DNA of 64,000 nucleotides, from NCBI RefSeq assembly GCF_030652515.1, contig NZ_JAUSAR010000107.1, positions 1-64,000 on the forward strand, written 5' to 3'. The position numbers were made by a program, and so were the translations under genes. The stretch is from Aquabacterium sp. (GTDB lineage: Bacteria > Pseudomonadota > Gammaproteobacteria > Burkholderiales > Burkholderiaceae_C). Shown in pieces: positions 9,266 to 64,000 of the stretch (the stretch's first letter is position 1; each line of letters starts with the position of its first letter). The notes under the pieces were generated by a model that did not search any database, was not told the DNA's origin, and worked only from the letters and a program-made list of their open reading frames with translations.

Positions 9266-9353
9266 TGTTCTCTCCTAGCGGAACACTCTGTGGATGTGGA
9301 GATGGTGATGAGGAAGCGGCGTGAAAACCCCGCCTCCCCGCAAAGCCCGTTGA

Positions 9354-11144
9354 TTAGAACAGGGCTTCGTCCATTTCCGTCAGGGGCTTCAGACCGGCCT
9401 TGGCGGTGATCATCAGGGTTTCGACTTCAGGCAGCAGCTTGGCGAAGTAGAAGCGGGCCGTGGCCAGCTTGGCGATGTAGAACTTGTCGCCAGAGCTTTG
9501 CTTTTCCAACGCGATCTTGGCCATGCGGGCGAAGAAGTACGAGTACACCAGGTGACCGACCACGCGCAGGTAGTCGACCGCAGCGGCGCCGACTTCGTCG
9601 GGGTTCTGCATGGCCTTCATGCCGATTTCCATCGTGAAGCCCTGCACCTTTTCGCCCAGAGCCGCCAGGGGCTTGGTGAACTCTTGCATGGCTTCGTTGT
9701 CGGCGTTTTCCTTGACGAAACGGCCCACGATCTTGCCGAACTTGGTCAGCTTGGCGCCACCGTCGCCCAGCACCTTGCGGCCCAACAAGTCCAGCGACTG
9801 GATGGTGTTGGTGCCTTCGTAGATCATGTTGATGCGGGCGTCGCGCACGAACTGCTCCATGCCCCACTCGTGGATAAAGCCGTGGCCGCCATACACCTGC
9901 TGGCAGTGCACCGTCGCGGCGAAGGCGTTGTCGGTGATGAAAGACTTCACGATCGGGGTCAGCAGGGCCACGATGTCGTCCGATTCCTTGCGGACGGCTT
10001 CATCGGGGTGGTTGTGCGACTTGTCCAGCTCGATGGCGGTGTAGTACACCAGGGCACGGGCGCCTTCGGCGTACGCACGGGCGGTCAGCAGCATCTTGCG
10101 CACATCGGGGTGCACGATGATGGGGTCGGCGGCCAGGTCAGGGCGCTTGGGGCCCGACAGGGCACGCATTTGCACGCGGTCCTTGGCGTACACCACGGCG
10201 TTTTCATAGGCGACTTGCGTCAGGCCCAGGGACTGGTTGCCCACGCCCAGGCGGGCGCCGTTCATCATCACGAACATGGCAGGCAGACCGCGGTGGGGCT
10301 TGCCCACCAAGGTGCCGTTGGCGTTTTCCAGAACGATCTGGGCCGTGGCGTTGCCATGGATGCCCATCTTGTGTTCCAGGCCACCGCAGTAGATGCCGTT
10401 GCGCGAACCGATCGAGCCATCAGCGTTCACGTTGAACTTGGGCACCACGAACAGCGAGATGCCCTTCGAGCCTTCAGGGGCGTCGGGCAAGCGGGCCAGC
10501 ACCAGGTGGACGATGTTCTCGGCCATGTCGTGTTCACCAGCCGAGATGAAGATCTTGGCGCCCGTGATCTTGTAGCTGCCGTCGGCTTGGGGTTCGGCCT
10601 TGGTGCGCAGCAGGCCCAGGTCGGTCCCGCAATGAGGTTCGGTCAGGCACATGGTGCCGGTCCACTGGCCACTGGTCAGCTTGGGCAGGTACAGGGCCTT
10701 TTGCTCAGGCGTGCCGTGGGCTTCCAGGGCAGCGTGCGCGCCATGGCTCAGGCCGGGGTACATGGTCCAGGCCTGGTTGGCCGAGTTCATCATTTCGTAG
10801 ACAGCCTGGTTCACCAGCTGAGGCATGCCTTGGCCGCCCCACTCCGGATCGGCGCTCAGGCCGGACCAGCCGTTTTCGGTGTAGGTCTTGTAGGCTTCCT
10901 TGAAGCCGTCGGCGGTCTTGACTTCGTGCGTGGTCTTGTCCAGCACGCAGCCTTGCACGTCGCCCACCAGGTTCAGCGGGGCCAGCACCTTGGAAGCGAA
11001 CTTGCCGCCTTCTTCCAGCACGGCATTGACCGTGTCGGCATCCAGATCGGCGTAAGCGGGGATCTTCTTCAATTCATCAACCGCGCCCAGCAGCTCATGA
11101 ATCACGAACTGCATGTCGCGCAGTGGGGGGTTGTAAGTAGGCAT
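9354..11144 (-). CDS. Acyl-CoA dehydrogenase (long, C-terminal-extended type)
   Basis: The 596-residue protein is larger than classical acyl-CoA dehydrogenases (about 390 aa) and matches the DmdC/FadE-like type with an extra C-terminal domain. It contains MCLTEPHCGTDLG and the FAD/substrate segment YGGHGFIHEWGMEQFVRDAR, followed by the nucleotide-contact motif IYEGTNTIQ. It introduces the first double bond in fatty acyl-CoA and hands electrons to ETF. It is the first gene of the fad operon, with a GAGGAG site, and lies directly downstream of a TetR regulator. Confidence 0.93.
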   Translation of the reverse strand: MPTYNPPLRDMQFVIHELLGAVDELKKIPAYADLDADTVNAVLEEGGKFASKVLAPLNLVGDVQGCVLDKTTHEVKTADGFKEAYKTYTENGWSGLSADPEWGGQGMPQLVNQAVYEMMNSANQAWTMYPGLSHGAHAALEAHGTPEQKALYLPKLTSGQWTGTMCLTEPHCGTDLGLLRTKAEPQADGSYKITGAKIFISAGEHDMAENIVHLVLARLPDAPEGSKGISLFVVPKFNVNADGSIGSRNGIYCGGLEHKMGIHGNATAQIVLENANGTLVGKPHRGLPAMFVMMNGARLGVGNQSLGLTQVAYENAVVYAKDRVQMRALSGPKRPDLAADPIIVHPDVRKMLLTARAYAEGARALVYYTAIELDKSHNHPDEAVRKESDDIVALLTPIVKSFITDNAFAATVHCQQVYGGHGFIHEWGMEQFVRDARINMIYEGTNTIQSLDLLGRKVLGDGGAKLTKFGKIVGRFVKENADNEAMQEFTKPLAALGEKVQGFTMEIGMKAMQNPDEVGAAAVDYLRVVGHLVYSYFFARMAKIALEKQSSGDKFYIAKLATARFYFAKLLPEVETLMITAKAGLKPLTEMDEALF

Positions 11145-11229
11145 CGTGGAGCTCCTCGGTCACAAAAACACGGTTAATGAGAAAGACCTGATCACACTTG
11201 TGGTGTCGGTGATTACAGGGTGGGACGGG

Positions 11230-11973
11230 TCAAACGGCTGCCAGGGGTGCCGAAGCCAACCCGGCTTTGGCAGCGTCAGACGCCACCATTCCAGACGGTG
11301 TCGATGGCGCGCCCAGTGCATAGAACTGGACAACGCGCTCGAACGCCGCGCGGGCCCGATCCTCTGCCCCTTGCGAGCGCAGAAAACGCGCATCGTGGTG
11401 GAGCGACAGGATCAGACCATGGATCTCGAACAACATTTGCATCGGGTCGGTGTCTTCGCGCAGATGGCCCATGTCCATGGCCATGCGGATGGCGCGCCCC
11501 AGGGCACCGTGCCAGGTCAGCACCATGCCAGCCAGGGCATCGCGCACCGGGCCGGGGCGGTCGTCGAATTCGACCGCGCCACTGATGTAGATGCAACCCG
11601 AATCGATCTCGGTGGCGACCATGGCCACCCAGCGCTCGAACATGGCGCGCAGGCGAGGCAGGCCGCGTGGCTCGCGGATGGCGGGCAGGAAGACCTCGGC
11701 GGAAAAGCGCTCGTGGTATTCACGGATGACGGAGATCTGAAGTTCTTCGCGCGAGCCAAAGTGGGCGAACACGCCCGACTTGCTCATGCCGGTGACTTCG
11801 GCCAAGGCGCCAATCGACAAGCCCTCGATGCCCATTTGCGAGGCCAGGTTCAGCGCGGCTTCCAGGATGGTGGCACGGGTTTGCTGGCCCTTGGCCACGC
11901 CCTGGCTGACCCGCCCACGCTCACGCGCCGCTTCGGCGGTCTGTTTGGCGTCAAGGGGCAGGGATTCAGACAA
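11230..11973 (-). CDS. TetR-family regulator, probable beta-oxidation repressor
   Basis: The start is a TTG at 11973 with GGGAG six bases upstream, giving 247 residues. An N-terminal HTH is clear (LAEVTGMSKSGVFAHFGSRE, about residues 55-75), after a 30-residue leader. The C-terminal part is a typical ligand-binding helical domain. The gene is in the same direction as, and 85 bases upstream of, the acyl-CoA dehydrogenase/fadB/fadA operon. A repressor released by acyl-CoA is the natural inference, as for PsrA/FadR-type TetR proteins. Confidence 0.88.
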   Translation of the reverse strand: MSESLPLDAKQTAEAARERGRVSQGVAKGQQTRATILEAALNLASQMGIEGLSIGALAEVTGMSKSGVFAHFGSREELQISVIREYHERFSAEVFLPAIREPRGLPRLRAMFERWVAMVATEIDSGCIYISGAVEFDDRPGPVRDALAGMVLTWHGALGRAIRMAMDMGHLREDTDPMQMLFEIHGLILSLHHDARFLRSQGAEDRARAAFERVVQFYALGAPSTPSGMVASDAAKAGLASAPLAAV

Positions 11974-55607: not shown

Positions 55608-55895
55608 TCAGTGAGTCAATTTCACCACCACCGCCAGCCCAAAGGAAAGCAGGCAGGCCCAACCCGAGAGCAGCCACCGCAGCGGGATCGAATGGGGCAC
55701 GAAGCCCATGCCGCGAACGAAGCCCGCACTCATCGACCAGAACAGCAAGGTGGCCAAGGCGTGGTCGGCCTTCCCCGACGAGTTGGCCATCACCAATGGG
55801 TAGGCTGTGCCACCCAGCATGATCACCAGGGCCACCACCAAACTGGGCAGCTGGATGCCCGGCGCGGCCCGCCTGGTTCGCTCCACGGCGATCAT
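55608..55895 (-). CDS. ybgE: Cyd operon small membrane protein (YbgE-like)
   Basis: The ATG at 55895 overlaps the cydX stop by 4 bases (ATGA), which fixes the start. The 95-residue protein has three hydrophobic segments (PSLVVALVIMLGGTAYPLVM; ATLLFWSMSAGFVRGMGF; WLLSGWACLLSFGLAVVV). Its position after cydX and topology match YbgE-type cytochrome bd-associated proteins. The role of YbgE is not well defined. The longer antisense frame is a shadow of cydB. Confidence 0.75.
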   Translation of the reverse strand: MIAVERTRRAAPGIQLPSLVVALVIMLGGTAYPLVMANSSGKADHALATLLFWSMSAGFVRGMGFVPHSIPLRWLLSGWACLLSFGLAVVVKLTH

Positions 55896-56026
55896 GGCTG
55901 CGAATCCCCGCCCAAGGGGTGGTCGCCAGACAGAGCCCGAGCTTCCTCGGTCTCGCCCCACATGGCGTTCATGATGGCCAGCAAGACGGCAAAGCCAACT
56001 CCAAGGACCCAGGCGAAATACCACAT
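55892..56026 (-). CDS. cydX: Cytochrome bd oxidase small subunit CydX
   Basis: The 44-residue frame begins MWYFAWVLGVGFAVLLAIMN, the typical CydX single-helix sequence, and ends with a polar tail (GDHPLGGDSQP). CydX binds CydAB and is needed for stable oxidase. It begins 12 bases after the cydB stop, with AAGC just upstream, and overlaps the ybgE-like gene. It is too short for usual ORF cut-offs. Confidence 0.9.
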   Translation of the reverse strand: MWYFAWVLGVGFAVLLAIMNAMWGETEEARALSGDHPLGGDSQP

Positions 56027-56038
56027 GGCTTTGCTTTC

Positions 56039-57181
56039 TCAGTACGCGTTGTGTTCGTTGGCGCGGATATGCGCGAGGGTGACCTTGCCACGCATCACGC
56101 GGTAGGCCCAGGACGTGTACAGCACGATCAGCGGCATGAAGACGATGGTGGCGCCCAGCATCAGGCCGAGCGTCATGGGACTTGACACGCTGTCCCACAC
56201 CGTGAGGCTGGCGTTCGGCATCGTCGACGATGGCATGATGAAGGGAAACATGGCCGCGCCTGCGGTCCCGATGACGCCAGTGATCGCCAATGCGGAAACC
56301 ACAAATGCGGTGAGGGTCCAGCGCCAGGTCACCAGGATGCCAGCGAGCAGTGCCCCGCCCACGCCCAGCGCGGGCAGGATCCACAGCAAGGGTTGCTGGT
56401 CATAGTTGGCCCACCACCCGTTCGCACTGCGGACCACGGTCTTGGCCAAGGGGTCCGCCAAGCCGCCCGGATCGATGGCGGAGGTGATGACGAAGCCTTC
56501 GATGCCGCCGAAACGCAGCCACAGCCCGGCAGCGACAAACGCCACGACCATCACGAGCGCTGCGCCCACGGCCGCCCTGGCCGCACGCCGCTGAATGTCA
56601 CCTTCAGTGCGGTGCGCCAGGTACATCCCACCATGCATGGTGATCATGGCACTGCTGACCACGCCAGCGAGCAGCGCGAATGGGTTCAACAGTTGCCAGA
56701 AGCTGCCGGTGTACGTGGACACCAGGTAATCGTCGAAGCTGAACGGCACGCCTTGCAGCAAGTTGCCGAAAGCCACACCGAAGATCAAGGGCGGCACGGC
56801 GCCACCGATGAAGAGCCCCCAGTCCCACGTGCTGCGCCAGCGCGCATCATGGATCTTGCTGCGGTAATCAAAACCCACCGGGCGGAAGAACAAGGCCCAC
56901 AGCACGGCCAGCATGGCCCAGTAGAAGCCGCTGAATGCGGTGGCGTAGACCAGGGGCCATGCAGCGAAGATGGCGCCGCCACCCGTGATGAACCAGACCT
57001 GGTTGCCGTCCCAGTGCGGCCCCACGGTGTTGATGACGACGCGCCTCTCTTCGTCGCCCTTGCCAACGAAGGGAAGCAAGGTGCCCACGCCCATGTCGTG
57101 GCCATCCATGATGGCAAAGCCCACCAGCAAGACGCCCACGAGCAGCCACCAGATGAGTTTGAGGGTTGAATAGTCGAGCAT
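56039..57181 (-). CDS. cydB: Cytochrome bd oxidase subunit II
   Basis: The 380-residue membrane protein begins MLDYSTLKLIWWLLVGVLLV and has the motif FAIMDGHDMGVGTLLPF and GPHWDGNQVWFITGGGAIFA typical of CydB. About nine helices are expected. With CydA it forms the haem-bd quinol oxidase that reduces oxygen to water without pumping. It starts 9 bases after the cydA stop. Length agrees with the family (about 380). Confidence 0.95.
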   Translation of the reverse strand: MLDYSTLKLIWWLLVGVLLVGFAIMDGHDMGVGTLLPFVGKGDEERRVVINTVGPHWDGNQVWFITGGGAIFAAWPLVYATAFSGFYWAMLAVLWALFFRPVGFDYRSKIHDARWRSTWDWGLFIGGAVPPLIFGVAFGNLLQGVPFSFDDYLVSTYTGSFWQLLNPFALLAGVVSSAMITMHGGMYLAHRTEGDIQRRAARAAVGAALVMVVAFVAAGLWLRFGGIEGFVITSAIDPGGLADPLAKTVVRSANGWWANYDQQPLLWILPALGVGGALLAGILVTWRWTLTAFVVSALAITGVIGTAGAAMFPFIMPSSTMPNASLTVWDSVSSPMTLGLMLGATIVFMPLIVLYTSWAYRVMRGKVTLAHIRANEHNAY

Positions 57182-57190
57182 GTTGTTCTC

Positions 57191-58765
57191 TCAAGCCAGC
57201 CCATGGGCGGCGGTGTGGGCCGGTTCGGTCTGGTAGCGCCCCGTCCCGAGGCTACCGGGGCCCTGGCGCGCAAACTTGACCATCAGATAGACCTCGACCA
57301 CCAGCAACACGGTGTAGAAGGCGACGAAACCTGCGAGCGATCCGTACAGGCTGCCAACGCTGAGTGTCGAGACCGAGAGGTGCGTGGGGAGCACGCCGTA
57401 AATGGTCCACGGCTGCCTGCCGTATTCCGCGACGAACCATCCAAGCTCGCATGAGATCCAGGGCGCGGGCAGCATCCACAAGGCCCACTTGAGCAGCCAC
57501 GGCCTTTGGGTGAACTCGGATTTCAGCGTGCTCCAGAACGAGAGCCCGAACAAGGCCAGCATCGCGAAGCCAAGCCCAACCATGATTCGGAACGACCAGA
57601 ACATGGGCGTCACGCGCGGCACCGTGTCATTGACGGCCTGGTCGATCATCTCGGGGGTTGCCTGGCGGACATCGTTCACGTACTTCTTCAACAGCAAGCC
57701 AAAGCCGAGGTCGGCCTTGTGCATGTCGAACACCTGCTTGGCAACGGCATCATCGCGGTGCTTGCGCAGGGTTTCGAGGGCCGTGACCGCCACGATGCCG
57801 TTGACGATGCGCTCCCGGTTTTTCTCCTTGATGTCCTTGATGCCCGGGATCTGCTTGCTCAATGAGCGGGTTCCGATCAGGCCCATGACCCAGGGCACCT
57901 GGACGGCCCAATCGTTCTTCAACTCGGCCTGGTTGGGCCAGGCCACCACCGTGAACGATGCGGGGGCTGGCTCGGTTTCCCACATGGCTTCGATGGCCGC
58001 CATCTTGGTCTGCTGCGCCTCGCCGACCGTGTAGCCGGACTCGTCGCCCAGCACGATGACGCTCAGCACGGAGGCCAGACCAAACGCCGAGGCCACACGG
58101 AAGCTTCGCTTGGCGAACTCGACATCGCGGTTCTTGAGCAGGTACCAACTGGAGATGGACAGCATGAACATGGCCCCGGTCACATAGCCGGCGGAGACCG
58201 TGTGCACGAACTTGGCCTGTGCATCGGGGTTGAACACGATGGCCCAGAAGTCGGTCATCTCCATGCGCATGGTCTGGTAGTTGAACTCGGCACCGACCGG
58301 GTTCTGCATCCAGCCATTGGCAATCAGGATCCACAGCGCGCTCAGGTTGGTGCCGATCGCCATGAGCAGCGTGACCATGAGGTGCCGCGTCTTCGGCAGG
58401 CGGTCCCATCCAAAGAAAAACAGGCCAATGAACGTCGATTCAAGGAAGAAGGCCATCAAGCCCTCGATGGCCAAGGGCGCACCGAAGATGTCGCCCACGT
58501 AGTGCGAGTAATAGGCCCAGTTCGTTCCGAACTGAAACTCAAGGGTGATGCCGGTGGTCACGCCAAGCGCGAAGTTGATGCCGAAGAGCTTGCCCCAGAA
58601 GCGCGTCATGTCTTTCCAGATGACGTTGCCGGTCATCACGTAGACGCTCTCCATGATCACGAGCAGCCACACCATGCCAAGGGTCAGAGGCACGAAGAGG
58701 AAGTGGTACATCGCGGTGGCGGCGAACTGCAGCCGCGACAGGTCGACGAGTTGTTCTGAAATCAA
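57191..58765 (-). CDS. cydA: Cytochrome bd oxidase subunit I
   Basis: The frame starts with a TTG overlapping the cydP stop (TTGA), with CAGGAG seven bases upstream. The 524-residue product has the haem-binding His21 (AMYHFLFVPLTLGMVW), EFQFGTNWAYYSHYVGDIFG and the conserved GWFVAEYGRQPWTIYGVLPT end. It is the long-Q-loop type (over 520 aa). It oxidises quinol and carries haems b558, b595 and d. Cytochrome bd is known to be resistant to sulfide, which is relevant to the adjacent FisR-like regulator. Confidence 0.95.
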   Translation of the reverse strand: MISEQLVDLSRLQFAATAMYHFLFVPLTLGMVWLLVIMESVYVMTGNVIWKDMTRFWGKLFGINFALGVTTGITLEFQFGTNWAYYSHYVGDIFGAPLAIEGLMAFFLESTFIGLFFFGWDRLPKTRHLMVTLLMAIGTNLSALWILIANGWMQNPVGAEFNYQTMRMEMTDFWAIVFNPDAQAKFVHTVSAGYVTGAMFMLSISSWYLLKNRDVEFAKRSFRVASAFGLASVLSVIVLGDESGYTVGEAQQTKMAAIEAMWETEPAPASFTVVAWPNQAELKNDWAVQVPWVMGLIGTRSLSKQIPGIKDIKEKNRERIVNGIVAVTALETLRKHRDDAVAKQVFDMHKADLGFGLLLKKYVNDVRQATPEMIDQAVNDTVPRVTPMFWSFRIMVGLGFAMLALFGLSFWSTLKSEFTQRPWLLKWALWMLPAPWISCELGWFVAEYGRQPWTIYGVLPTHLSVSTLSVGSLYGSLAGFVAFYTVLLVVEVYLMVKFARQGPGSLGTGRYQTEPAHTAAHGLA

Positions 58766-58938
58766 GGTCGGGCTCCTGGTCTGGACGGTTCGCCGGCGAT
58801 GTGGGCCGCTGCCTGCTCAGGATCGACAGCGACATGGCGGTCCCGGACGAAGCCCCACCACAGCCCCGCCAATACCACCAGCTTCACGGCCACGGCAATG
58901 ACAAGGTGAGGCATCAGGCGGCGTTCGGCAGCGGGCAT
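58762..58938 (-). CDS. cydP: Cytochrome oxidase small subunit CydP
   Basis: The 58-residue frame (MPAAERRLMPHLVIAVAVKL, followed by VVLAGLWWGFVRD) has one membrane helix flanked by an RR-containing N-terminus and an Arg/Asp-rich loop, matching the small CydP protein found upstream of cydA in Proteobacteria. Its stop overlaps the cydA start. GGAGAAGG precedes the ATG. It is below usual ORF length limits. Confidence 0.8.
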   Translation of the reverse strand: MPAAERRLMPHLVIAVAVKLVVLAGLWWGFVRDRHVAVDPEQAAAHIAGEPSRPGARP

Positions 58939-58949
58939 GCCTTCTCCAT

Positions 58950-58965
58950 TCCAAGAAGCGTGCCA
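58950..58965 (-). promoter_or_regulatory. Candidate sigma54 (-24/-12) promoter for the cyd operon
   Basis: Read on the minus strand: TGGCACG-N4-TTGGA, with the GG doublet and the -12 doublet 10 bases apart. The -12 element has GG where GC is canonical. The projected transcription start is close to the cydP ATG, so cydP would be nearly leaderless and cydA the main target, which is a caution. Confidence 0.5.
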
Positions 58966-59065
58966 TGGCCAAGTCAGGCCAAGCTGGCCTTGAACGCTTT
59001 GGCGTTTTCACAGGTAAACCGCGGGTAAAGCGGGCGCACCGACGGCTTTACCCGCTGCGCCAGAA

Positions 59066-59119
59066 CTGCCAATGTGGCAGCCAACAAGTGCCAGATGGCA
59101 GCGCCTGCCAAGCTGGCAG
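59066..59119. promoter_or_regulatory. Enhancer-like TGCCA/TGGCA sites upstream of cyd
   Basis: There are three inverted repeats: CTGCCA-ATG-TGGCAG (59066-59080), TGCCA-GA-TGGCA (59089-59100) and CTGCCA-AGC-TGGCAG (59105-59119). They lie 100-170 bases upstream of the -24/-12 element, the usual place for binding of a sigma54 activator. The FisR-like protein is encoded immediately beyond them. Confidence 0.65.
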
Positions 59120-59130
59120 GCCCGGGAGGC

Positions 59131-60492
59131 TCAAGCCAGGCCGAGGGCTTTCAGTCGGCGGTACAAGGTGCGTTCACTCAAGCCGAGCTGGGCAGCCAGT
59201 TCGCGCCGGGTTCCCTGGAATGCCGCCAGGCGCTGTGCAAGCTCTTGGGCGCCGCCACGCTGGCGGGTCGATGTCAGCGCCTGGGCTGGGTGCGTCGTCG
59301 CTGGCCCACCCAATGGCGCCAAGGACTGGCCGAACTGCTCGGGCAGGTGCTCCGATCGGAGGATGCCGTCGTCGGCAAAGAGTCGGGCTCGGTCGAGCAC
59401 GTTGCGCAACTCGCGGATGTTGCCGGGCCAGTCGTGGTGCTGCAGTTGGGCCATGGCCGCGGGCTCCACCGAGATCCGGTGCTTTGCATCGCTGCCCCGT
59501 TGCAGAAAGGAGTCCACCAACATCGGGATGTCGGCCACCCGGTCTCGCAGCGGCGGAAGGTGGATCGGAAACGCGCTGATCCGGTAGTAGAGATCCTGGC
59601 GAAAGCGCCCATCCGCCACCATCTGGGCCAAGGGCTTGTGGGTGGCCGCCACCAGCCGGAAATCGGCCTGCTGGGTCTCGACACTGCCAACGCGGCGGAA
59701 CGCGCCCGATTCAATCAAGCGCAGCAGTTTGACCTGCATGGACAGCGGCACATCACCGATCTCATCCAGGAACAAGGTGCCGCCCTGGGCCGTTTCAACG
59801 AGACCTTTCTTGCGCGTGTTGGCCCCGGTGAACGCCCCCTTTTCGTGGCCGAACAGTTCGCTCTCGAACAAGGTCTCCGGCAGGCCTGAACAATCGACCA
59901 CGACAAAGGGACCGCCCGATCGCGGGCTCGCCTCATGCACCGCGCGCGCGAAAAGTTCTTTGCCGGTGCCCGACTCGCCAAGCAGCAGCACCGCCAGCGT
60001 GGATGGGCCAACGCGCTGCACCGCCGCCAGGGCCGCGTTGAAGGCGGGGGAGCGTCCAACCAAGCCCTCGGCACTCGGGCGCGCCGAGGCATGACGGACG
60101 GTCACCAGACGCTCGACGTAGGCCACCACCTCCCGGCGGCCATCAAGGATGGGCCGCAGTTCAACATCCACATGCTCGGGGCCCCGAGGGGTGTGGTGGA
60201 TGTGCAGCACGCGGTCGGGCCCCTTGAGCTCGAAGGCCTTCTTCATCGGGCAGTGCTCGCCGGCCTGATCGCATGGCACGTCGTAGTGGTGCGAGATGCG
60301 AAAGCACTTGTGCCCGATATAGGGCTTGTCGACGGTGCTGAACTGCCGCCTGTAGGCCGTGTTCGCGGCAAGGATGTTGTAGTCCGGGTCGAGCACGATC
60401 ATCGGCTGGGCCTCGTGCTCAAGGAAGGAAATCAGGGCTTGAACTTGCGGGGCTGACCGCAGGCCCTCCGGATCGGTGACAGGCATGGACAT
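59131..60492 (-). CDS. fisR: Sigma54-dependent activator, FisR-like persulfide sensor
   Basis: The 453-residue protein has an N-terminal PAS-like domain with Cys63, Cys74 and Cys81. The spacings (11 and 7) are those of the FisR cysteines C53, C64 and C71 that sense polysulfide. An AAA+ domain follows, with Walker A GESGTGKE and the sigma54 contact loop EKGAFTGAN, and then a Fis-type HTH ([20 protein letters not shown]). FisR activates sulfide-oxidation genes in Cupriavidus. Here it lies between cyd and a persulfide dioxygenase operon. The ATG at 60492 is used; 60486 is an alternative. Confidence 0.85.
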
Positions 60493-60530
60493 GGGGTGGC
60501 CGGGAAGTTTGAGCCATTGTGCGCCCTCAC

Positions 60531-60593
60531 TGCCACATCTGCCAAACCTGGCCCCTGGCTGCCAGATCGCCTGCCAACGTCGCAGAGATGGCA
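60531..60593. promoter_or_regulatory. Enhancer-like TGCCA half-sites upstream of the sulfur operon
   Basis: TGCCA occurs at 60531, 60540, 60560 and 60572, and TGGCA occurs at 60589. An imperfect inverted pair (TGCCA-AACC-TGGC) starts at 60540. They sit 90-165 bases upstream of the -24/-12-like element at 60682, mirroring the cyd side. Confidence 0.55.
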
Positions 60594-60681
60594 GTCATCA
60601 ACCCAGTCGCCGCGCATCGAATGCCTGCATTTCTTCTTATTAATCATGGGGTTAGGAAATCAAGCCGCTCAGCGGTTGCGT

Positions 60682-60697
60682 TGGCATGGGTCTTGAT
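60682..60697 (+). promoter_or_regulatory. Candidate sigma54 promoter for the sulfur operon
   Basis: TGGCATG-N4-TTGAT is a -24/-12-type element with GG and GA 10 bases apart. The projected start near 60708 leaves a leader with the AAGGAG of the DUF2892 gene. It supports activation by the adjacent sigma54 regulator. The -12 element is not canonical. Confidence 0.5.
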
Positions 60698-60744
60698 AAG
60701 ACTGGACCAGCAGCACAACGCTGCCAACCAGCAAGGAGACTCTC

Positions 60745-60939
60745 ATGCAAAAGAACGAAGGCACTCTGGACCGTGTGTTGCGCATCGGCGCAGGCTTGGC
60801 CTTGATCGGAATGGCGGCGACGGATGTCATCGGCTTCTGGGGGTACATCGGCATCGTCCCGCTGCTCACTGGCGCGGTCGGCGTGTGCCCGCTGTACTCG
60901 GTACTGGGCCTGCGCACTTGCCCGATCAGTCGTCGCTGA
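60745..60939 (+). CDS. DUF2892 inner-membrane protein (YgaP-type, no rhodanese)
   Basis: The 64-residue protein follows AAGGAG and has two hydrophobic stretches (DRVLRIGAGLALIGMAATDV; FWGYIGIVPLLTGAVGVCPL), with cysteines in GVCPLYSVLGLRTCP. This is DUF2892, the membrane part of YgaP-like sulfurtransferases, often found in persulfide operons. It is the first gene of the sulfur operon. Confidence 0.88.
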   Translation: MQKNEGTLDRVLRIGAGLALIGMAATDVIGFWGYIGIVPLLTGAVGVCPLYSVLGLRTCPISRR

Positions 60940-60953
60940 AGCGGAGGCCGCCG

Positions 60954-61850
60954 ATGAAGAGCCGCACCGCCTTGCAGGTCGAGGGCTTTTTCGATCCAAA
61001 CACTTGGACCGTGAGTTACATCGCCCTCGACACCTCGACCCAGCAATGCGCGCTGATCGACAGCGTCCTCGACTACGACCCGGGGTCGGGTCGAACCTCT
61101 CATGAAAGTGCTGACAAACTGATCGCGCGTGTCCGCGAACTGGGCGCCACCGTGGCGTGGATACTGGAGACCCACGTTCATGCCGATCACCTTTCAGCGG
61201 CGCCTTATTTGAAGCAGCAGCTGGGCGGCCAATTGGGCATCGGCGAGCACGTCAAGACGGTGCAGAACGTGTTCGGTCAATTGTTCAACGTGGGCAGCGA
61301 ATTCGCCCGTGATGGTCGGCAATTCGACCACCTCTTCAGCGACGGGGAATGCTTCAGCATTGGCCAGCTGCCGGTCCGGGCAATCCACACCCCCGGCCAC
61401 ACCCCGGCCTGCATGACTTACGTGGTGAGTGACGGTGAAGGCGCCCACCAGACCATGGCCGCATTCGTCGGCGACACGCTGTTCATGCCGGACTACGGCA
61501 CCGCTCGATGCGACTTCCCCGGTGGCGATGCCCGCACGCTGTACCGCTCCATCAACAAGGTTCTGAGCCTGCCAACCGAAACCACGTTGTACATGTGCCA
61601 TGACTATCAGCCGGGTGGTCGCGAAGTTCAGTACATCAGCACGGTGGGCGATGAGCGCGCGAAGAACATCCACGTGCGAAACGGCATCAGCGAAGAAGAG
61701 TTCGTCGTGATGCGCAACACGCGCGATGCGACCCTGGCCATGCCCACGCTGATCCTGCCCTCCGTGCAGGTGAACATGCGTGCGGGGCATTTGCCAGAGC
61801 CTGAGGCGAACGGTACGCGCTACATCAAGATCCCGCTGAACACCCTCTGA
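60954..61850 (+). CDS. MBL-fold persulfide dioxygenase (Blh/ETHE1-like)
   Basis: The ATG at 60954 follows CGGAGG. The 298-residue product has the metal site THVHADHLS, HTPGHTPACMTY, the ETHE1-like acidic site FVGDTLFMPDYGTARCDFP and a late MCHDYQPGG. These match the Blh/persulfide dioxygenase type, which oxidises glutathione persulfide to sulfite with an iron centre. The N-terminal sequence FFDPNTWTVSYIALD is typical of the family. No rhodanese domain is fused. Confidence 0.9.
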   Translation: MKSRTALQVEGFFDPNTWTVSYIALDTSTQQCALIDSVLDYDPGSGRTSHESADKLIARVRELGATVAWILETHVHADHLSAAPYLKQQLGGQLGIGEHVKTVQNVFGQLFNVGSEFARDGRQFDHLFSDGECFSIGQLPVRAIHTPGHTPACMTYVVSDGEGAHQTMAAFVGDTLFMPDYGTARCDFPGGDARTLYRSINKVLSLPTETTLYMCHDYQPGGREVQYISTVGDERAKNIHVRNGISEEEFVVMRNTRDATLAMPTLILPSVQVNMRAGHLPEPEANGTRYIKIPLNTL

Positions 61851-61862
61851 CGGGACCCCAGC

Positions 61863-62666
61863 ATGGAGATGAGTTTGATGGGGCTAGGTCTGGGTGCCGT
61901 CGTCGGGCTGATCCTCGCGCTCGCTGGCGCAGGTGGCGGCATCCTCGCGGTGCCATTGCTCGTTTTTGGCTTGCACCTGACGATCATGCAGGCAGCACCG
62001 GTCGGCCTGATCGCTGTCGGAGCGGCCTCTGGATTGGGGGCGGCATTGGGCCTGCGCGAAGGCATCGTCCGCTACCGTGCTGCAGCGCTGATCGGCATCA
62101 CCGGCATGTTGCTCGCGCCCGTGGGCGTGCAACTTGCGCGGCTCATTCCCAATCAGCCCTTGATGGTGGCGTTCTCCGTCGTGCTGGGGTGGGTTGCATG
62201 GCGCAACGGCACCAGCGCACCGCTTGAGGCCAGGGAAGCGAAGATACCTTGCGTGGTGAACCCCAGCATGGGTCGCATCCTGTGGACCGCGCCATGTGCC
62301 TGGGCCTTGGCGGGCACCGGGGTGGTGTCAGGCTTGCTGAGCGGCCTCCTGGGCGTCGGTGGCGGCTTCGTCATCGTGCCGTCTCTGAGCCGCCATACCG
62401 ACCTGCCTGTGCGAAGCATCTTTGCCACCTCTCTGGCCGTCATCGCGCTCGTGTCCATCGGCGGGGTGGCTGCCGCGGCCTGGCAAGGCGCCATCGCGTG
62501 GCGCATCGCCCTGCCATTTACCTTTGGGGCGATGGCCGCCCTGCTCGCCGGGCGGCAGCTGGCCTCCCGTTTGGCCGGAGCCCGTTTGCAACAAGGATTT
62601 GCGGTGACCAGCGGGGCCGTTGCGATGCTGCTTCTCGCCAGAGGATTGGGCTGGATCGTCATCTAG
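61863..62666 (+). CDS. TauE/SafE-family sulfite exporter
   Basis: The 267-residue protein has about eight membrane helices, with the TauE/SafE motif GAGGGILAVPLLVFGL at the N-terminus and a second repeat LLGVGGGFVIVPSLSRHT. It probably exports sulfite made by the dioxygenase. It starts 12 bases after the dioxygenase stop, completing the DUF2892-Blh-TauE trio known from bigR-type operons. Confidence 0.9.
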   Translation: MEMSLMGLGLGAVVGLILALAGAGGGILAVPLLVFGLHLTIMQAAPVGLIAVGAASGLGAALGLREGIVRYRAAALIGITGMLLAPVGVQLARLIPNQPLMVAFSVVLGWVAWRNGTSAPLEAREAKIPCVVNPSMGRILWTAPCAWALAGTGVVSGLLSGLLGVGGGFVIVPSLSRHTDLPVRSIFATSLAVIALVSIGGVAAAAWQGAIAWRIALPFTFGAMAALLAGRQLASRLAGARLQQGFAVTSGAVAMLLLARGLGWIVI

Positions 62667-62677
62667 CGATTGCCAGG

Positions 62678-63499
62678 CTAATCCTGCCAGCCTGCCAACA
62701 AGCCCTCATCGATCCAGCGGCGCAGGTGGCCACCCGCCACGGCTGCCGCGTTCTCGTGCGCGGGCAACAATTCCGCCAAGCATGCACACGTCTCTGCGAA
62801 CGACTGCCCCTGCATCAACGCCCGCAAAGCCGCCGCCTCGCTCGGCAACACGCTCCTGAAATGCGGCCGCTCTTCAAAGCGCCACACCACCACATCGATC
62901 GGCGATGGCAAAGCCTCAACCGGCGGGACGTCAAGATCCTGGTCCAGCGCGTGCCACAAGCTCAGCGTGTTGCACCGCAGGTTGATCAAGGCCAGCGTGG
63001 GGTGCGGTTTGAACACGACCGTGGCCCAGTCCTCGGGCGCCAATGCGGCCACGTCGGCCAGGGCCAACACCGGCGCATCCAGCCCATCAAAAGCTGCGCG
63101 CATGGTCCAGTCCAGGCGCGCGATCTCTGCCACCTCCGGGTGATCACCCAAGGCGCTGCCCGCATCGCTCAATCGCTGCGCCAGCCAATCGGGGTAGGCG
63201 CCGCCATACCAACGCAGGTTGGCCGACTCGGACGGGTGCGTTTCAATGAACTCGGCCGACAAGGCATCGAACCATTCATCCCCCAGGTACAGCACGGTGT
63301 GGCCAAAGCTGTCGCGCAAGGTTTCTTGCAAGCGCGCCCGGTAGGCGTGGTGGTAAATGCCCAGACGCTGCGCGGCGCTGCCCGGCACCACGCTGACCAC
63401 ATCGGCCACGGCGGCCGCATCGCCCACCAGCACATGGCCTTGCAGGCGTGATTGCAAGGCCTCCAGCGAAGACGACTTAGAGTCAAACGGCATCGTCAT
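62678..63499 (-). CDS. BufC/HvfC-family protein (DUF2063)
   Basis: The start is set at the ATG at 63499 ([11 protein letters not shown]), which shares 1 base with the MNIO stop; a GTG at 63502 is an alternative. The 273-residue product has the DUF2063 N-terminal block (LGIYHHAYRARLQETLRDSF) and an APEDW-type middle segment. BufC/HvfC proteins are partners of MNIO (DUF692) enzymes in copper/zinc-binding RiPP (bufferin) biosynthesis. Tight coupling to the MNIO gene fits. Confidence 0.85.
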   Translation of the reverse strand: MTMPFDSKSSSLEALQSRLQGHVLVGDAAAVADVVSVVPGSAAQRLGIYHHAYRARLQETLRDSFGHTVLYLGDEWFDALSAEFIETHPSESANLRWYGGAYPDWLAQRLSDAGSALGDHPEVAEIARLDWTMRAAFDGLDAPVLALADVAALAPEDWATVVFKPHPTLALINLRCNTLSLWHALDQDLDVPPVEALPSPIDVVVWRFEERPHFRSVLPSEAAALRALMQGQSFAETCACLAELLPAHENAAAVAGGHLRRWIDEGLLAGWQD

Positions 63500-64000
63500 C
63501 ACGCGGCCCGCCTTTCCAGCACCGAGGCGGCCACGCTGCGCGCCTGGTCCAGCTCGGCGATCAGCTCGGGCAAAGGCGGGATGTGGTCATCGCGCTCGAT
63601 CATCGTGGCCACGGCACCATAGCGCTCGCAGGCCTGGGCGTACAGGGCCCACACCGCATCGGCCACGGGGTGGTCGTGCGTGTCGATGATGTGGTCGCCA
63701 TGGTCGGTGTGGCCCGCCAAATGGATCTGCTGCACGCGGCCCACGGGGATGTGGTGGATGAAGTCCAGGGCATCAAAACCATGGTTCACGCTGCTGACAT
63801 GGATGTTGTTCACATCGAGCAGCAGCAGGCAATCGGCCTCTTCGCACAGGCGGGCGATGAAGTCCCACTCCGTCATGTGCGAGCTTTGAAATTGAACATA
63901 GCTGGAGACGTTCTCCAGCACCAGGCGTCGGCCCAGCACGTCTTGCACCTGGCGCACATTGCGCACCACCAGCGCGAGCGCTTCGTCGGTGTAGGGCAAG
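63499..64000 (-). CDS. MNIO enzyme (DUF692, BufB/HvfB-like), 5' part outside window
   Basis: The frame is open to the right edge; the apparent first residue is simply the edge codon. The visible 166 residues hold [31 protein letters not shown] and [22 protein letters not shown], the iron-binding His/Asp segments of multinuclear non-haem iron oxidases (MNIO). These convert cysteines in a precursor peptide to 5-thiooxazole-type or related groups. The precursor (BufA) would lie further upstream, outside the window. Confidence 0.9.

Follow-up and report, generated by a model that had tools for sequence, protein, structure and literature searches.

The stretch analysed here, referred to as the window, is a 64-kb piece of contig NZ_JAUSAR010000107.1 of Aquabacterium sp., and all feature coordinates given below refer to the whole of it. 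Its − strand carries the gene of a FisR-type activator (59131..60492), which stands between the genes of a cytochrome bd oxidase and a gene set for persulfide clearance. It is proposed, with a probability of roughly 0.82, that this FisR acts as a cytoplasmic sulfane-sulfur sensor and as the common activator of both flanking operons, i.e., the persulfide dioxygenase (PDO) set and cydPABX-ybgE. The FisR regulon very probably includes a terminal oxidase. The initial annotation of the window had already placed the regulator between cydPABX-ybgE and a DUF2892-dioxygenase-TauE set and had suggested a single sigma54 switch for the oxidase and sulfur clearing. The placement is confirmed: the cyd genes lie to the left of fisR on the same strand, behind a gap of 192 bp, and the DUF2892-PDO-TauE set lies to its right on the + strand, divergent from fisR. 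The suggested switch gains support from matching promoter modules at the two operons, from recurrence in many genera, from the lack of the module at low-identity cyd operons and from two operons of Massilia.

The two modules are built alike. At each neighbour operon, five CTGCCA/TGGCAG hexamers lie about 90–150 bp upstream of a -24/-12 box of the sigma54 type. On the cyd side, the hexamers occupy 59066..59119, with two palindromes CTGCCA-N3-TGGCAG among them, and the box ATGGCACGCTTCTTGGA lies at 58950..58966 (− strand), 12 nt ahead of the cydP ATG. On the dioxygenase side, they occupy 60530..60594, and the box TTGGCATGGGTCTTGAT lies at 60681..60697 (+ strand), with similar boxes in relatives. 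Both sets of repeats, to which no strand is assigned, are putative FisR binding sites. Boxes were scored with our own weights on the sigma54 consensus, GG-N10-GC with TGGCAC/TTGC, and hexamers were counted 20–220 bp upstream of the box. The strict rule asks for at least three hexamers, and the looser one for at least two, together with a box score of at least 12.5 and GGCA within the box. By the strict rule, the window holds exactly two sites, one for each neighbour of fisR, with five hexamers each; in 30 dinucleotide shuffles of the window, such sites averaged 0.13, and a site with at least four hexamers never arose.

In the regulator itself, Pfam identifies a PAS_4 sensor domain (residues 25–132), a sigma54-interaction AAA+ domain (Sigma54_activat, 144–311), a lid (AAA_lid_14) and a C-terminal Fis-type helix-turn-helix (HTH_8), with the motifs GESGTGKE at 172 and GAFTGA at 219. 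There are exactly four cysteines, at 63, 74, 81 and 201, of which the first three lie in the sensor with spacings of 11 and 7, and a persulfide dioxygenase gene with a sigma54-type promoter diverges from fisR. Over 437 residues, the protein is 71% identical to FisR of Cupriavidus pinatubonensis HN-2 (L145). The earlier assignment as FisR-like, made on these three cysteines, is thus borne out by the sequence, the Pfam domains and this identity. The third cysteine of the characterised FisR is presumably Cys71. In Cupriavidus FisR, a tetrasulfide joins Cys53 and Cys64, the spacing of which equals that of Cys63 and Cys74 here (PMC9495516).

In the family, a search at E≤1e-90, with scoring confined to the top five first-look candidates of each genome, gave FisR-like proteins in 56 of 299 genomes; in the order set, they occur in 79 of 399 genomes. 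Among named genomes, there were at least 540 matches, the best 80 of which were analysed, and the order-level regions comprise 60 hits of classes 1 and 2 together with 20 hits of lower identity. The classes were set by identity: class 1 (at least 60%) contains the window and HN-2 proteins, class 2 spans 46–59% and class 3 spans 41–45%. A FastTree phylogeny puts the 90 rows of class 1 by themselves on one side of a branch supported at 100, so that the window protein falls in a clade with the Cupriavidus one. Six duplicates (L109, L110, L118, L138, L143 and L159) and two poor rows (L095 and L260) were left out of the tree; the same six were dropped from the strict module scan and kept in the cysteine and linkage counts, and L143 was dropped from the looser-rule promoter counts and the Fisher counts. 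The Cys triad was present in 217 of 219 aligned FisR-like rows, duplicates counted, the other two being truncated or unreadable at the N-terminus. A loss of these cysteines in close orthologues, which had been named beforehand as a sign against a sulfide switch, did not occur, as all 96 class-1 rows (six duplicates among them) read CCC. Being present in nearly all the FisR-like proteins aligned, the triad was rejected as a proof of sulfide sensing at this locus; it is a mark of the family and not of the locus. The shared control module, unlike the triad, goes beyond chance.

The strict scan was extended to 212 non-duplicate loci (2.9 Mb). The 89 class-1 loci gave 110 sites, of which 78 precede the dioxygenase/ygaP operon (in 76 loci) and 17 precede cyd (in 16 loci); 10 belong to a different gene immediately downstream of fisR, 1 to a different gene divergent from it, and 4 lie elsewhere. 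There were 33 sites in the 103 class-2 loci (13 at cyd, 7 elsewhere) and a single one in the 20 class-3 loci. By the looser rule, the module was found at 19 of the 21 class-1-linked cyd operons, the two misses being L152 and L153 of Massilia, whose cydPAB lies inside a pdo-sqr operon. It was also found at 16 of the 20 class-2-divergent cyd operons of the family and at all three with a non-adjacent FisR in the genome (L177 and L178, where the contigs of cyd and fisR are equal in length and cyd presumably lies about 14–18 kb from fisR, and L221, where it is on another contig). Among five cyd operons without a FisR match or present as a second copy, one had it. None of the 22 low-identity cyd operons did, including the 61% paralogue of the window genome. 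These 22 comprise the promoters of 14 of the 35 low-identity copies dealt with below, six others (one also among the 35) and the class-1 loci L101 and L163; the count refers to the stretch before cydA, L101 having a module further upstream, at an ABC transporter gene, probably cydD, that precedes its 61% cydAB. Taken by itself, the box score was discarded as evidence, since three low-identity cyd promoters reach a shuffle p≤0.03, and discrimination comes only from the repeats with the box, or from the box with GGCA. Like the domain make-up and the Cys triad, the pairing of the modules, the conservation they show and the lack of them at the low-identity operons are established at the level of sequence.

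Further, the arrangement of the parts is the ordinary enhancer geometry of sigma54 promoters. In the relatives, the hexamers are most frequent 80–160 bp ahead of the box in dioxygenase promoters and 60–140 bp ahead of it in those of cyd. The IHF consensus, scored by exact match, occurs in 25 of 76 dioxygenase promoters of relatives (0.28 expected from shuffles), mostly 36–41 bp ahead of the box, and in 4 of 29 cyd promoters (0.14 expected).

The search for this gene order in relatives, which the initial annotation had recommended, revealed that the linkage of fisR with cyd recurs in many genera. Among the named class-1 loci, 19 of 80 (the best 80 of at least 540 matches) have a cydA of at least 80% identity within about 6 kb. 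The linkage is seen in Aquabacterium, Roseateles, Herbaspirillum, several Oxalobacteraceae, Cupriavidus laharis, a Pseudomonas, Solimonas marina and others. The order of the window, with the dioxygenase gene (first labelled blh) read in one direction and fisR followed by cydPAB in the other, recurs; in Aquabacterium L097, which belongs to class 2, cyd is divergent from fisR. On the class-1 part of the tree, the linkage changes no fewer than 16 times, and well-supported branches force 11 of these changes; the cyd link was, therefore, gained or lost many times. Class-2 regulators stand divergent beside cydAB in 44 of 103 loci (20/44 in the family set, 24/59 in the order set), and class-3 regulators in none of 20; related regulators thus stand beside cyd across the order Burkholderiales. 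In G159 (locus L074), from the genus of the window, cyd stands beside a class-2 regulator, whereas the window genome has a class-1 one, and the two classes of regulator appear to substitute for one another there. Within the family, FisR was found in 24 of the 30 genomes whose cydA is of high identity (at least 81%) versus 32 of 269 others (Fisher p 8e-15, not corrected for relatedness). FisR adjoins 23 of the 31 high-identity cydA copies, and none of the 35 low-identity copies (57–67%) lies within those FisR loci. A high-identity cydA without a FisR match occurs in six genomes, four promoters of which were examined; in the other two, which are incomplete, cydA is cut by a contig end.

What FisR senses at cyd deserves separate consideration. 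It might act directly on cyd and answer there to some other thiol-reactive or respiratory stress, such as cyanide, nitric oxide or disulfide stress, with sulfide as one inducer among several. In 41 of the 44 class-2 loci with cyd, no dioxygenase of more than 45% identity is present in the fragment, and cytochrome bd is also known to guard against nitric oxide and cyanide, as with CioAB of Chromobacterium violaceum (PMC11837568). Nevertheless, a persulfide dioxygenase adjoins fisR in 84 of the 95 class-1 loci, and the characterised FisR answers sulfane sulfur (PMC9495516). The neighbours of regulators in relatives without cyd point the same way, with all matches being below the curated cut-offs: SQR-like flavoproteins at four class-3 loci (L299, L306, L309 and L311, all four tested) and PhsA-like proteins at three class-2 loci (L243, L249 and L256). 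Another molybdoprotein is found at class-2 L250 (Pfam), and CcoG, above the cut-off, at L264 and L266. A survey of open reading frames in class-2 loci without cyd was unreliable in these GC-rich sequences, FisR itself having been missed in 8 of 24 loci, and the survey was used for leads only. Perhaps the class-2 and class-3 regulators represent a sulfur-sensing family wider than FisR proper. A different principal signal at cyd is, overall, improbable, and sulfane sulfur is preferred.

It may also be argued that FisR controls the dioxygenase operon only and that cyd is a chance neighbour or is regulated by oxygen through Anr/Fnr or RoxSR. Most class-1 loci show no nearby cyd, and in Burkholderia cenocepacia, cydPAB, anr and roxSR were found together as genes for anoxic survival (PMC9104464). 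Against this stand the module at the window cyd, its presence at nearly all the class-1-linked cyd operons and its lack at the low-identity ones. Moreover, in Massilia agilis (L152) and M. solisilvae (L153), cydP-cydA-cydB lies within the pdo-sqr operon divergent from fisR, in the order pdo, sqr, ygaP-like, cydP, cydA, cydB, a 101-aa gene and tauE. The gaps in the M. solisilvae operon range from -49 to +118 nt, the Massilia sqr product is 77% identical to Cupriavidus SQR, and two small genes of the M. agilis operon were read from the sequence. Control of the dioxygenase operon alone is, therefore, very unlikely.

Since fisR and cyd are co-oriented with a gap of 192 bp, read-through from fisR could also be the main source of cyd expression, with the box at cydP unused, and this is the least credible of the alternatives, as the repeats and box recur at a near-constant spacing to cydP, even where cyd is divergent (L097) or non-adjacent (L177, L178 and L221). 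Among the 19 module-bearing class-1-linked promoters, 14 have the cydP ATG exactly 12 nt past the -12 element and three have it 13 nt past, with L168 and L103 deviating. Eleven of the 12-nt stretches share a mean identity of 35%, i.e., the spacing is kept and the letters change. Transcription from sigma54 promoters starts about 12 nt after the -12 element; the transcript would thus begin at the AUG or 1–2 nt before it, and we infer that the cydP mRNA is leaderless. In class 2 of the family, the spacing is 12–14 nt in 11 of 20 promoters and 27–30 nt in six, and it is unclear, or no module is present, in three. The cydP starts were taken from lists of ATG codons and from reading the sequence (L042 has in-frame ATGs at 6 and 12 nt, and the second was used). 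An automatic reading of the starts chose earlier codons in several rows and was not used for the spacing.

Several observations weigh against common control by FisR. The hexamer and the score were picked after the window sequences had been viewed, and the fit there is partly by construction; the weight is, therefore, carried by the outside controls. The cyd box of the window has GG at -12 instead of GC, and its score is not extreme by itself (shuffle p 0.045). The dioxygenase box has GA there, and both boxes keep GG-N10-G; GC itself occurs in several cyd boxes of class 1 and in most of those of order-level class 2. The exact IHF consensus is absent from both window promoters. In the order set, where the full 520 bp before cydA were scanned (slightly more than in the family scan), the looser rule excludes 13 of the 24 class-2 cyd promoters, nearly always for lack of hexamers; 23 of the 24 have a sigma54-type box, in many cases near TGGCACG-N4-TTGCA, and 11 combine it with at least two hexamers. 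Distant relatives thus generally share the box and less often the repeat, which may be a different one there. Among the genomes without a FisR match, G081 has a weakened module, still good enough for the looser rule, and G185 a weak one, and another activator could, therefore, use such a site; G038 and G173 have neither repeats nor box at cyd. The link is also not universal, as no cyd shows up in a range of about 5 kb at 72 of 95 class-1 loci, with contig ends hiding some. Finally, the dioxygenase set of the window has no SQR, and the catalytic part of a single Cupriavidus SQR found no match in the window genome at E≤1e-10, other SQR types not having been searched.

Further targets were sought in the window genome with the pattern CTGCCA-N0-12-TGGCAG. 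It occurs at 15 places on the forward strand, compared with 5 for the reversed control, and three of the 15 belong to the two window promoters. A third genomic target was rejected: among the other 12 places, only L201 has two hexamers upstream of a box and none has three, with the limit that targets made of half-sites only could be missed.

In the proposed mechanism, sulfide would be oxidised to persulfide or polysulfide, and the sulfur would cross-link Cys63 and Cys74, with Cys81 nearby. This cross-link would free the AAA+ domain, and FisR, bound at the CTGCCA/TGGCAG repeats, would hydrolyse ATP, allowing the sigma54-RNA polymerase to open two promoters. From the first, the YgaP-like transmembrane protein, the persulfide dioxygenase and TauE would be produced, so that persulfide would be cleared and sulfite exported. 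The second would induce cydPABX-ybgE, a terminal oxidase that is not blocked by sulfide, and cytochrome bd could sustain respiration while the haem-copper oxidases are blocked. The chemistry of activation is extrapolated from the characterised FisR (PMC9495516, PMC12170894), for which the activation of ATPase and transcription has been reviewed (PMC12170894), and cytochrome bd has an established resistance to sulfide (as cited in PMC7315123 and PMC8148161). If true, oxidase swap and sulfur clearance would be one response, in which detoxification and respiration are joined under a single signal.

That bd keeps bacteria respiring in sulfide and that bd genes rise with sulfide is known already. 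The new element is a characterised type of persulfide sensor with a conserved, directly testable promoter at cyd. The control of cyd by FisR had been taken as undescribed, and indeed no report of FisR or another sigma54 activator controlling cyd was found in the literature on FisR, persulfide, sulfide and cytochrome bd, a search of open papers that did not contain the founding FisR paper. The closest system is FisR of C. pinatubonensis JMP134 (Li et al. 2017), which shares the domain plan, the cysteine spacing, the divergent persulfide dioxygenase and the sigma54 promoter, and differs in being known as an activator of sulfide-oxidising genes. In Acinetobacter baumannii, FisR (A1S_1707) is a sigma54 activator that drives the divergent pdo1-sqr-tauE, and cydAB of the same organism is induced by sulfide (PMC7315123); however, the locus numbers of cydAB (A1S_1433-1434) are distant, and the excerpted text states no FisR dependence. 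YgaV of E. coli is a sulfide-responsive regulator that affects the cytochrome bd genes (PMC9774250, PMC11858517), but it is of the SqrR/BigR type and not a sigma54 activator; the mechanism of the sulfide-dependent bd induction was described in 2022 as unknown (PMC9774250). In C. violaceum, CioR is a dedicated regulator within the operon of a sulfide-protective bd-type oxidase; unlike FisR, it is a MarR-family repressor, with a promoter induced by cyanide alone among five compounds (PMC11837568).

The founding FisR study may have missed cyd on account of its organism. In C. pinatubonensis HN-2, the strain examined here in place of JMP134, the module downstream of fisR is kept. The repeats, the box and the first cydP codons (L145, about 9294–9660) resemble those of C. 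laharis (L140) and are followed by a stop, and tauE takes the place of cydPAB, with no cyd there. This remnant looks like a deletion scar.

Modules were also found before other genes. At L040, five hexamers and a box precede a CIO-type bd oxidase (10269–11681, − strand; Pfam Cyt_bd_oxida_I), which is only a distant relative of the window CydA. Others precede Rieske proteins (assigned by Pfam at L047 and L100 and by eye at L045 and L108), FixG/CcoG-like proteins (by Pfam at L046, L049 and L132 and by eye at L048 and L104), an SQR (77% by blastp, L041) and the tauE of HN-2. A wider proposal can be offered tentatively, at somewhat less than even odds: across much of Burkholderiales, though not necessarily most of it, a principal transcriptional signal for cytochrome bd may be sulfane sulfur and not oxygen, FisR and its relatives may be general switches of the respiratory chain, and the leaderless cydP mRNA may allow induction without a Shine-Dalgarno start. 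The idea of a general switch is based on the modules before the CIO-type oxidase, the probable cydDC-cydAB operon, the Rieske subunits and the maturation factor CcoG.

As for the parts of the locus, cydP (58762..58938), with its predicted leaderless start, encodes a small cytochrome bd subunit that matches NCBIfam small_CydP above the cut-off. It is followed on the − strand by cydA (57191..58765; Pfam Cyt_bd_oxida_I) and cydB (56039..57181; Pfam Cyt_bd_oxida_II, and TIGR00203 above the cut-off). The last two genes, read from their translations, are presumably cydX (44 aa, 55892..56026) and a ybgE-like membrane protein gene (55608..55895). On the + strand, the dioxygenase operon begins with a YgaP-like transmembrane protein (DUF2892, Pfam PF11127; 60745..60939) and ends with a TauE/SafE exporter (Pfam PF01925; 61863..62666). 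Between them lies the dioxygenase (60954..61850), of metallo-beta-lactamase fold (Pfam Lactamase_B) with HVHADH at 74, which is 74% identical to the FisR-divergent protein of HN-2. It had been labelled Blh, a name that does not hold: the match to the bifunctional Blh profile (NF040641) reaches 386 bits against a cut-off of 625 and covers profile positions 140–423 only, the N-terminal sulfurtransferase part being unmatched. The protein is, therefore, a stand-alone persulfide dioxygenase.

In the genome as a whole, there are four haem-copper oxidase matches, two CydA proteins (the window copy and its 61% relative) and two genes above the cut-off for the sigma54 DNA-binding domain (G000:C76:3280-3744 and G000:C150:20719-21192). 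The contamination estimate of the assembly is 8.99%. Next to the sulfur operon, a DUF2063 protein (Pfam) is encoded at 62678–63502 on the − strand. The gene beside it (63499–63999, − strand) we take to be a DUF692/MNIO enzyme, and the pair recalls metal-binding peptide clusters.

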